Position numbers and translations under genes: made by a program. DNA of 38,760 nt from an uncultured Nocardioidaceae bacterium (GTDB lineage: Bacteria; Actinomycetota; Actinomycetes; Propionibacteriales; Nocardioidaceae): NCBI GenBank assembly GCA_902805845.1, contig CADCUI010000033.1, forward strand, positions 1 through 38,760. Reading direction: 5' to 3'. How positions within the stretch are numbered: the stretch's first letter is position 1; every line of letters begins with the position of its first letter. Positions 23,123-38,760 of this stretch are shown here, piece after piece. The notes beneath the pieces were generated by a model. That model was not told the DNA's origin. It ran no database searches and saw nothing but the letters and a program-made list of their open reading frames with translations.

Positions 23123-24040
23123 TCAGGTCGGGTCAGGTACGTCGGAGCCGGTCGGATCACTGGCGGGCAGGTACATCGTCGTCGCGCCGGATCGGACCTC
23201 CCAGCGACGGGACCGGTGCGGTCCCGACACCTCGCCGTCGGTGGTCAGCCAGAAGTCCTCGCCTTCGACCGTCACCTCCGACCCGGTGATCCTGGTGACC
23301 TCGCGCATGAGGTGGTGCGTGCCTCCACGCAGACGCGCGAGGTAGACCAGTCGGCTGCTCAGCCCGGCGGCCCGCGACACGATCACGACGAGCCGCCCGC
23401 TCGCAGGGTCGGCCCCAGGGATGAGCTCGGTGCCACCACCGACCGACGACCCGTTGCCGACCGCGACCTGGGCGACCCGGGTCCCGGGGGCCACGGGCTC
23501 GCCGTCCACCGCCACGCGGACCCGGATGAAGTCCGGGCGCACCATGGCCGACAGTGCCCCCACGACGTAGCCGATCCGTCCGAGCCGCGACTTCCACTTC
23601 GACGCCTTGCGACTTGCCTGGGTGCCGACCCCGAGGTGGGCGTTGTTGATCACCACGAGACCCGCGTCGTCGACGACGACGTCGATGGGCCTGGTGTGGC
23701 CGGCGGTGACGATCCGCGCCGCTTCGGCGGGGTCGAGAGGCAGCCCTACGGCGCGGGCGAAGTCGTTGCCGGTCCCGAGCGGGATCAACCCGATGCTGGT
23801 GGCGCTGAGGAGGTCGAGGCGGTAGAGCGCGTTGACGACCGCGTGCAGGCTCCCGTCGCCGCCGGCCACCACGACGCTGCGGTCGCCGCCCTCGACACAG
23901 ACCTCGTCCAGCTCGTCGGGGTGGGTGGTCGAGACCACGACGACGTCCGCGTTCTCCTCGAGAACCGCCAGGGCGGCGTCGATGGCCTCCTGCTCGTGGG
24001 TGCCCGCGGCGGCGTTGGCGACCAGCAGGATGCGTTCCAC
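23123..24040 (-). CDS. Diacylglycerol kinase family lipid kinase
   Basis: A 305-residue member of the DAGK catalytic-domain superfamily (DgkB/YegS/LCB5 type), which phosphorylates a lipid hydroxyl using ATP. Motifs: the N-terminal strand ILLVANAAAGTH, the nucleotide loop VVVAGGDGSLHAVVNAL (GGDGS at 60-64), IPLGTGNDFAR (86-96) and the C-terminal beta-sandwich domain ending in VEGEDFWLTTDGE. The substrate (diacylglycerol, sphingoid base or an actinobacterial lipid) cannot be told. GTG start with a TAAGGT box 7 bases upstream on the same strand. Divergent from purA. Confidence 0.9.
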   Translation of the reverse strand: MERILLVANAAAGTHEQEAIDAALAVLEENADVVVVSTTHPDELDEVCVEGGDRSVVVAGGDGSLHAVVNALYRLDLLSATSIGLIPLGTGNDFARAVGLPLDPAEAARIVTAGHTRPIDVVVDDAGLVVINNAHLGVGTQASRKASKWKSRLGRIGYVVGALSAMVRPDFIRVRVAVDGEPVAPGTRVAQVAVGNGSSVGGGTELIPGADPASGRLVVIVSRAAGLSSRLVYLARLRGGTHHLMREVTRITGSEVTVEGEDFWLTTDGEVSGPHRSRRWEVRSGATTMYLPASDPTGSDVPDPT

Positions 24041-37686: not shown

Positions 37687-38196
37687 GTGGCACTCGAAGA
37701 CCGGTGGACCGGTCCCATGCGGCTCGCTCTCGAAGAGGCGCGGGCAGCCCTGACGTCCTCCGACGTACCGGTCGGAGCGGTGGTGCTCGACGCCGACGGG
37801 GCCGTGCTCGCGCGTGGCCGCAACCGCCGCGAGGCCGACGGTGACCCCACCGCCCACGCCGAGATCGTCGCCCTCCGCGAGGCGGCGCGGGTGCGCGGCG
37901 GCTGGAGGCTCGACGGCTGCACCCTGGTGGTCACCCTGGAGCCGTGCACCATGTGCGCCGGCGCGGTCGTGCTGGCGCGGACCCAGCGGCTGGTCTTCGG
38001 GGCGTACGACGAGAAGGCCGGAGCCGTCTCCTCGCTCTGGGACGTGGTGCGCGACCGGCGCCTGAACCATCGCCCCGAGGTGCTCGGCGGCGTGCTGGAG
38101 CAGGACTGCTCGGCGATCCTGCTCGAGTTCTTCGCGGCTCGACGCCGCGCTCCGCGCACCACGGAACCGGGTTCCGTGGCCGAGGCAGGCCTCTAG
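37687..38196 (+). CDS. tadA: tRNA-specific adenosine deaminase TadA
   Basis: Zinc deaminase that converts the wobble adenosine of tRNA-Arg(ACG) to inosine; essential in most bacteria. The 169-residue protein has the zinc-site signatures HAEI (His57, catalytic Glu59) and PCTMC (Cys87, Cys90). It also has RWTGPMRLALEEAR at the start and LVFGAYDEKAGAVSSLWD, characteristic of TadA rather than of free-nucleotide deaminases. GTG start 8 bases after the associated-protein gene. The last codons contain a 21-bp palindrome, and a tRNA-Ser gene begins 13 bases after the stop. Confidence 0.94.
   Translation: MALEDRWTGPMRLALEEARAALTSSDVPVGAVVLDADGAVLARGRNRREADGDPTAHAEIVALREAARVRGGWRLDGCTLVVTLEPCTMCAGAVVLARTQRLVFGAYDEKAGAVSSLWDVVRDRRLNHRPEVLGGVLEQDCSAILLEFFAARRRAPRTTEPGSVAEAGL
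38159..38179 (+). terminator. Perfect palindrome inside the 3' end of tadA
   Basis: CCACGGAACC and GGTTCCGTGG are 10-bp perfect inverted arms around a single G, inside the last 13 codons of tadA. It could form a hairpin near the transcript end and act as a terminator or mRNA end-protector. There is no T-run. Confidence 0.45.
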
Positions 38197-38202
38197 TACC
38201 CT
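38197..38202 (+). promoter_or_regulatory. Candidate -10 box (TACCCT) of tRNA-Ser
   Basis: TACCCT starts directly after the tadA stop codon and ends 7 bases before the first base of the tRNA, so transcription would begin at or next to the mature 5' end. Confidence 0.5.
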
Positions 38203-38209
38203 CGTCGGC

Positions 38210-38296
38210 GGTGGCGTGTCCGAGCGGCCTAAGGAGCACGCCTCGAAAGCGTGTGTGGGGGTAACTCCACCGTGGGTTCAAATCCCACCGCCACCG
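38210..38296 (+). tRNA. tRNA-Ser (anticodon CGA)
   Basis: An 87-base class II tRNA. The acceptor stem GGTGGCG (38210-38216) pairs with CGCCACC (38289-38295), with discriminator G at 38296. The anticodon stem CACGC/GCGTG encloses the loop CTCGAAA with anticodon CGA at 38244-38246, reading UCG codons. A long variable arm (around GTGGGGGTAACTCCAC) marks it as a serine tRNA. The T arm GTGGG-TTCAAAT-CCCAC is perfect. CCA is not encoded. Serine tRNAs are common integration sites for mobile elements. Confidence 0.97.
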
Positions 38297-38370
38297 CGGT
38301 GCGTCGGCGGCATCCTTGCAGGTCAGCGACCTGTCAGGGTGCCGTCGGTCGTCGTTCTCGGGCTGATTGG

Positions 38371-38502
38371 TCACGACGTGGTCACCGTGGTCCCCGCGTA
38401 GATCGCTCGGATGCGTCCGGCCACCAGGGTCTGCGCGGTGTCGGAGTCGGCCGCGATGATGGCTAGTAGCCGCTGAGCCTCGTCCACGGTTCCGTTATTC
38501 AT
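38371..38502 (-). CDS. Short ORF (43 residues), unknown function, downstream of the lower-GC gene
   Basis: Minus-strand frame from an ATG at 38502 whose first bases overlap the stop of the preceding gene (GATGAATAA), giving MNNGTVDEAQRLL at the start and VTTS at the end. No membrane segment; a helix followed by a small basic region (AGRIRAIY). The overlap suggests translational coupling, but the frame is short and has no separate ribosome site. I do not recognise a family. It lies in DNA of lower GC than the rest of the window. Confidence 0.45.
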   Translation of the reverse strand: MNNGTVDEAQRLLAIIAADSDTAQTLVAGRIRAIYAGTTVTTS

Positions 38503-38760
38503 CACGCTCAGTGTCGCCGCGTTCTCGCGCCAAGGAGCTGATCACGTCGCGAATGGCTTGGTCCATGACCAGGCCTTGAGAACGAGCGAGCCGCCGTTGG
38601 GTATCGAAGATCTCTTGGCTGACCCCCTCGGGCAACAGGGAGTTCGGGTACTTACCTGTCTCCCGAGCCGCCATCGTGTCGAAGTGGTGAGCTTTACCGA
38701 GCGCACGAACATGCTCCGCCAGGTCTACCTGTTCTTGCCGCAGGGTCTCGAGCTCGAACG
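38495..38760 (-). CDS. Partial protein of unknown function, C-terminal 87 residues, lower-GC region
   Basis: The gene enters from the right edge on the minus strand; its stop is TAA at 38495-38497. The visible part is hydrophilic and helical, containing RQEQVDLAEHVRAL, GKYPNSLLPEGVSQEIFD and an Arg/Glu-rich C-terminus (SLARERGDTERDE). No catalytic motif or membrane helix is visible and I do not recognise the family. Two 60-base lines counted by hand hold 36 and 34 G/C, about 58%, clearly below the ~70% elsewhere, which together with the adjacent tRNA suggests horizontally acquired DNA. Confidence 0.6.
   Translation of the reverse strand, partial: FELETLRQEQVDLAEHVRALGKAHHFDTMAARETGKYPNSLLPEGVSQEIFDTQRRLARSQGLVMDQAIRDVISSLARERGDTERDE

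Follow-up and report, generated by a model that had tools for sequence, protein, structure and literature searches.

A low-GC contig end beside tRNA-Ser(CGA) in an uncultured Nocardioidaceae bacterium and IS481-family elements at the tRNA ends of its relatives

Features at the end of contig C33

The window, meaning the whole stretch of 38,760 nucleotides analysed here, spans contig C33 from end to end, in an assembly of 91 contigs and 3.28 Mb (96% complete) from an uncultured Nocardioidaceae bacterium, and it ends 463 bases past an intact tRNA-Ser(CGA) gene. An earlier note, made on the letters of the window, had called this tRNA and proposed it as a possible genomic-island boundary; ARAGORN and Rfam both bore out the call (Table 1), while the next 10–50 kb downstream, which the note had recommended for inspection, are absent since the window is the whole contig. 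The tadA-like deaminase gene is the usual left neighbour of the tRNA: some part of a query joining tadA and the tRNA was matched in 57 of 58 genomes (own genome included), and in several of these 57 the two lie apart from each other. As an observation on another tRNA call of the window, ARAGORN places a tRNA-Met(CAT) at 23362–23460 whose length of 99 bases is unusual and which has no Rfam support at the gathering score.

Table 1. Coordinates of the features around tRNA-Ser(CGA) at the right-hand end of the window
Feature	Position	Strand	Basis
tadA-like deaminase gene, usual left neighbour of tRNA-Ser(CGA)	37687–38196	+	Pfam MafB19-deam 1.9e-36, dCMP_cyt_deam_1 2.9e-29
tRNA-Ser(CGA), intact	38210–38297	+	ARAGORN; Rfam 53.6 bits
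Low-GC, putatively accessory tail, cut by the contig end	38298–38760	.	GC 0.635; 0 of 757 other windows as low
23-bp hairpin containing the palindrome of the earlier note, probable tRNA terminator	38301–38352	.	fold -38.5 kcal/mol, z -4.56
44-aa ORF, probable C-terminal part of a broken gene	38371–38505	-	last residues, AGRIRAIYAG, similar to those of the second G214 ORF (55% identity over 20 aa)
87-aa ORF, open at the contig end, probable central part of the same gene	38495–38758	-	profile and search with the G416 protein

Directly behind the tRNA the base composition changes. The GC content of the tail is 63.5%, and 61.3% in its last 261 bases, against a window average of 72.1%, so that the drop described in the earlier note is real and its figure of 58% too low. 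Of 757 further windows of equal length sampled at a step of 50, none is as low as the tail, though the margin is small, with the next lowest at 64.1%. Third-position GC amounts to 68% in the larger and 82% in the smaller ORF of the tail, compared with 89% in tadA and 95% in upp.

The palindrome CAGGTC-AGC-GACCTG that had been noticed between the tRNA and the ORFs is present, one base away from its first placement (at 38319–38333), and forms the tip of a 23-bp stem whose fold was equalled in stability by none of 200 shuffles. As the tip of a long hairpin that carries no mark of an att site, it was ruled out as an att or regulatory site. In 20 relatives, the 75 nt past the same tRNA reach a folding z-score of -2 or below in 13 (8.8% among 136 control windows) and show no significant hairpin in the other seven. 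Left ends of IS481-family elements account for four of the 13 hairpins, which leaves a hairpin of another kind in nine of the remaining 16 relatives. The hairpins occupy the same position though their sequences are mostly unlike, for which a transcription terminator is the simplest reading, and the hairpin of the window is probably the terminator of tRNA-Ser(CGA). It is missing from the list of a terminator scan because no T-run stands behind the stem.

Both overlapping minus-strand ORFs that the earlier note had described in the tail exist, the larger one running off the contig end, and are best read as a single broken gene. Searches of Pfam, PHROGs, PADLOC and NCBIfam returned no usable family for either of them, the matches being weak (POF1B_HlH with an E-value of 0.14 and one 12-residue PHROG match of unassigned function with 8e-4). 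Conservation of the same ORFs at this place in most relatives, which the earlier note had named as evidence against an island boundary, was not seen: among the 293 other family genomes, the 87-aa ORF has a match in G214 alone, where it does not lie beside a tRNA, and none in the four genus mates searched. A two-row profile built from the window and G214 found one further credible relative among 391 genomes of the order, own genome included, namely in G416 (E 0.003); a match in G487 (E 0.007) was set aside, as it seems to reflect chance resemblance within a coiled coil.

In G416 one unbroken ORF encodes the homologue, a protein of 170 aa that has a hydrophobic stretch at its N-terminus. Searched against 296 genomes of the class, evidently drawn without G416 itself, this protein had the window tail as its sole match (E 2.5e-4 over about 80 aa), and the homology is weak, at 19–23 bits. 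Since G416 carries one ORF of 170 aa, two independent genes in the tail were ruled out, and the two ORFs are, as far as sequence comparison can tell, most likely one gene of a rare membrane-anchored family broken by a frameshift, whose N-terminal membrane anchor would lie past the contig end. The frameshift may be real or may be an assembly error near the contig end. The copy in G214 is also broken, at another place than that of the window, and is followed by a second ORF whose end resembles that of the 44-aa ORF; as this copy is likewise split, at a different point, the tail may instead hold a coupled two-gene arrangement. The N-terminal continuation of the gene was not found in the own assembly (best E 0.5), and no confirmed relative was found in the plasmid and phage collections or in viral_contigs and genome_contigs, the scans of the latter two being insensitive since they start from exact 8-residue words. 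The neighbours of the homologues include an AAA_15 ATPase in G214 and an Mrr_cat_2/ResIII restriction gene in G416, with transposase-like ORFs around both according to our own reading of their N-termini, and the roughly 20 kb read around them contain no tRNA.

The far side of the gap and the origin of the tail

The DNA downstream of tRNA-Ser(CGA) was read in the 20 relatives over about 19 kb in 13 of them and over 0.9–14.7 kb in seven; they were picked among genomes that have tadA and the tRNA together and are not a random sample. Parts of one order recur, running tadA, tRNA-Ser, a variable interval, a block of gntP, usp and a permease gene, then an aminotransferase gene, an antiporter gene, dnaX and recR, and at least one marker of the downstream block is present in 16 of the 20, counting G026, from which most queries were taken. 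The comparison of the locus across relatives, which the earlier note had suggested, thus reveals a 3' interval that varies among the 20 genomes read. In the genus mate G003, gntP starts 149 bp past the tRNA. The own genome has the aminotransferase and antiporter genes on contig C57, whose far end carries gntP (84% identical to that of G003); the 2,103 bases between this gene and the contig end hold a STAS-domain gene, one whose product is probably secreted, and a truncated ORF. Added to the 463-base tail of C33, this puts gntP no less than 2.57 kb from the tRNA even before the unread gap is counted, where G003 has 149 bp, the link between C33 and C57 being one of synteny and not of reads. At the very end of C57 (L067, 14480–14634) lies a small secreted-protein-like ORF of repetitive look, with NVNVGDVTILEDVNVGV in one frame, and repeats at this end may have broken the assembly.

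The DNA that follows the tRNA looks accessory; it is compositionally distinct and is absent from this place in the relatives. The reading we favour, with a probability of roughly two in three, is that tRNA-Ser(CGA) has a hot spot for insertions on its 3' side and that, in this genome, accessory DNA gained by horizontal transfer separates the tRNA from the gntP-usp-permease block. The visible parts of this DNA are the first 463 bases on C33, with the hairpin and the broken gene, and the last 2.1 kb on C57. The composition, the rarity of the gene and the synteny with G003 are observed, as is the lack of a recognisable integrase beside the tail and of an att repeat in the DNA read; the C33 tail and the C57 end would then be parts of one insertion, and this DNA would have arrived by horizontal transfer. 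Against this reading stand the small GC margin and the third-position GC of the short ORF, which at 82% is near the 89–95% of the host, as well as the contig break that hides the middle and leaves C33 and C57 joined by synteny only. The extra genes on C57 could also be old vertical genes that were lost in G003.

It is doubtful that a tyrosine integrase put an island into the 3' end of tRNA-Ser(CGA), the integrase and the att repeat lying in the unassembled gap or outside the bin. The position at a tRNA, the low GC, the accessory gene and the contig break at the same spot would suit such an event, and so would G014, in which a tyrosine-integrase fragment follows the same tRNA at a distance of about 1.5 kb, behind an IS481 element. 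However, integrases usually lie directly beside the tRNA, and the gene beside it here is no integrase. The earlier note had found neither an integrase nor a second tRNA 3' end within the window; the assembly, 96% complete, yields no integrase beyond three matches to PF00589, namely XerD (C10), XerC (C8), both so named from our reading of sequence and neighbours, and a partial one (C62). On the C33 tail and the C57 end, which lie on either side of the unread gap, no integrase was seen. A 24-mer of the tRNA end, allowing up to three mismatches, matches the own assembly at the tRNA itself and nowhere else, and the longest exact match of the tRNA end on the C57 end is 10 nt long, which is at the level of shuffled sequence (mean 8.7, maximum 14).

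Among the matches listed, G014 is the only one of the 20 relatives with an integrase up to 20 kb downstream of tRNA-Ser(CGA), the contigs being short in seven. The DNA between its IS and the integrase begins with a tRNA-Pro tail, which speaks for recombination between two IS copies or for misassembly, so that tRNA-Ser(CGA) is not shown there as an integrase site; the integrase may belong to a tRNA-Pro. Of the boundary proposed in the earlier note, the accessory-looking DNA stands, at a place that varies among the relatives read, whereas neither an integrase beside the tRNA nor an att repeat turned up in the sequence available; an integrase-made island at tRNA-Ser(CGA) is a hypothesis that is neither demonstrated nor supported here. 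Two details of the integrase loci may be recorded. The partial match on C62 (about 21.1–21.9 kb; L036, 9136–9903) is a short, possibly degraded tyrosine-integrase ORF between an apparent operon for pyrimidine/hydantoin degradation, transporter included, and a cysteine-desulfurase-like gene, these names being our own reading. On contig C139 of G014 (L046/L014), the IS481 element at tRNA-Ser(CGA) has the tRNA-Pro tail as its right flank, followed by the end of the tyrosine integrase.

A vertically inherited intergenic region with an old, decaying lineage-specific gene, in which the GC dip reflects decay and the contig end is an accident of coverage, is unlikely. Decay would agree with a gene that is broken here and, at a different place, in G214, with the small GC margin over the contig and with the 82% third-position GC of the short ORF, but the four genus mates searched gave no match, the larger ORF has a third-position GC of 68%, compared with 89% for tadA and 95% for upp, and the two credible homologues sit in mobile or defence-type surroundings. 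Very improbable is an assembly artefact in which the final few hundred bases of C33 were joined on as a chimera; the tail does lie at a contig end, has no second match in the assembly and lacks a continuation of its gene there, yet the context of tRNA and hairpin looks natural and the ORF is homologous over about 80 aa to a protein of another genome.

IS481-family elements at tRNA ends

The accessory-insertion reading treats the 3' flank of tRNA-Ser(CGA) as a place of recurrent insertion, and four of the 20 relatives carry an IS481-family element or its left end at the end of this tRNA: in G001, G002, G014 and G022, TGTGATGTCTCAGGACATCG starts two bases past the equivalent of window position 38297. 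An antisense transposase follows the motif in G014, the one element for which the family was tested, and belongs to the IS481 family by NCBIfam NF033577 (232 bits, cut-off 224), with an rve match at 3.8e-14. In the own genome the motif is absent from tRNA-Ser(CGA), and its only exact copy (L248, C16:29963–29981, minus strand) lies three bases past the 3' end of the tmRNA, where a strong hairpin-like repeat but no transposase was noticed.

A pattern search for the motif behind a tRNA T-loop, with 8–24 bases allowed between the two, found the arrangement at 91 places, spread over 65 of the 294 genomes of the family, all 91 with a gap of 14–16 bases as computed from the lengths, while the reversed pattern gave none in the same search. 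Exact matches to the motif number 155, summed over 86 of the 294 genomes, so that 59% stand at tRNA ends by the strict pattern alone. When 30 of the 155 loci were inspected, the strict pattern was missing before 11. Four of these follow a right IS end and a 15-bp tRNA tail, in tandem, and were for that reason dropped as exceptions to the tRNA rule; one follows a tRNA-Ala, one is that at the own tmRNA and five have none of these before them. One of the five, L238, is a true exception, a complete element with a full IS481 transposase and no recognisable tRNA.

In the genomes of GTDB species, a looser T-loop pattern with a permitted gap of 9–20 matched at least 118 stretches. The matches listed (80 titles) come from many actinomycetotal genera and one Chloroflexi MAG, and 116 of the 118 listed have a gap of 15 or 16. 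These 118, together with 30 of the 91 family loci, make up the 148 loci examined, of which 143 are distinct, as five duplicates (the same place twice or identical neighbourhoods) were left out of the recount. Among the matches listed, ARAGORN finds a tRNA ending 0–4 bases before the motif at 109 of the 143 distinct loci; its type there is Pro at 40, Ser at 24 (CGA at 17), Arg at 21, Leu at nine, Met at eight and another at seven. As a pattern, the tRNA-end IS481 elements of the relatives are well supported.

A transposase match was found downstream of the motif at 65 of the 148 loci, and all 87 such matches among those listed are antisense to the tRNA. Among the 105 distinct loci listed with at least 600 bases downstream, the transposase is intact at 20, broken at 28 and absent at 57; at the latter, the motif alone may be a host terminator. 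Complete elements measure 1.27–1.37 kb and contain one transposase. Inverted TGT...ACA ends are present in 19 of 20 candidate elements, with the right end at +1266 to +1373 and 16–23 of 26 bases matching, where in eight of the 20 an inner repeat scored equal or better and the outer one was taken; L148 has no recognisable right end. In 16 of the 20, 13–15 bases of the tRNA end are repeated past the element, as in CTGTCAGCCCGACCA, and L186, L102 and G014 have right ends but lack a duplication that matches their own tRNA. By a mechanical count with a threshold of 12 identical bases in 13 between the tRNA end and the DNA after the element, the repeat is present, among the matches listed, at 12 of 18 distinct loci with an intact, four of 22 with a broken and none of 51 with no transposase, compared with 18 of 360, three of 440 and none of 1020 in the respective mispaired controls.

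A possible mechanism and related systems

On balance we think that the tRNA ends of Actinomycetota, including that of tRNA-Ser(CGA), are a dedicated target of a single-gene IS481 lineage that inserts in one orientation, duplicates about 15 bp, may stack in tandem and decays to a new tRNA terminator; the tRNA of the window would be an unoccupied or differently occupied site. The transposase, or a target complex joined to it, would recognise the end of the tRNA gene and make a staggered cut of about 15 bp, from the 3' strand of the T-stem to the CCA position, leaving the tRNA whole on one side of the element and a 15-bp copy on the other. The hairpin in the left end would terminate the transcript of the transposase and could also terminate that of the tRNA, in which case the left end and its hairpin would outlast the decay of the element, as behind the own tmRNA. 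A further insertion behind a tRNA that already has an element would displace the older copy, and tandem arrays would result.

With the islands that tyrosine integrases form at tRNA genes, the window shares an intact serine tRNA that is immediately followed by accessory DNA of low GC, variable between relatives; it differs from them in that neither an integrase beside the tRNA nor an att duplication was found, the middle being unassembled. The elements of the relatives resemble the IS481 family in the transposase of G014, which scores above the NCBIfam cut-off and has an rve domain, and in their 5'-TGT/ACA-3' ends, an end rule that the parts of PMC11406308 consulted give as common to IS481 and Tn7-like elements. 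Unlike the IS481 elements described in the excerpts consulted of two further papers, those of the relatives sit at the 3' ends of tRNA or tmRNA genes and are accompanied by a duplication of about 15 bp: for the actinobacterial ISLxc2 the target repeat is NCTAGN (PMC2516522), and the IS481 elements of P. fluorescens SBW25 insert into REP sequences with a duplication of 4 bp (PMC11708052). Tn7-like transposons directed by TniQ or a guide RNA are similar in that a DDE transposase system acts at tRNA genes (PMC11406308, in the same parts), whereas the elements of the relatives, with about 1.3 kb and a single transposase gene, are too small to encode TniQ, an ATPase or CRISPR components as well. 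The literature searched, which includes portions of PMC9569102, PMC3751702 and PMC9208149 and excludes ISfinder, contains no recognisable description of tRNA-end targeting by IS481, and neither term is present in PMC2770080; the novelty of these elements is provisional.

If this picture of the lineage is true, a lone DDE transposase settles at tRNA genes much as phage integrases and Tn7-like elements are known to do, and a one-protein transposon with a fixed, harmless and universal target would be a testable model for the site specificity of DDE transposases. It would also be a caution for island finders, as a duplicated tRNA end need not mark an integrase. The window itself is ordinary, a tRNA-flanking accessory region cut by a contig end, and the interest lies in the tRNA-end elements; what the window illustrates is that DNA marked off by a tRNA and a drop in GC can be genuinely accessory even where nothing points to an integrase, and C57 is the place of the missing half.

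A minor observation concerns several genomes in which end motifs lie about 1.2–1.5 kb apart, apparently as tandem IS481 copies, for example G267 (C1:2093016, 2094410 and 2095801) and also G164, G265, G273 and G291.
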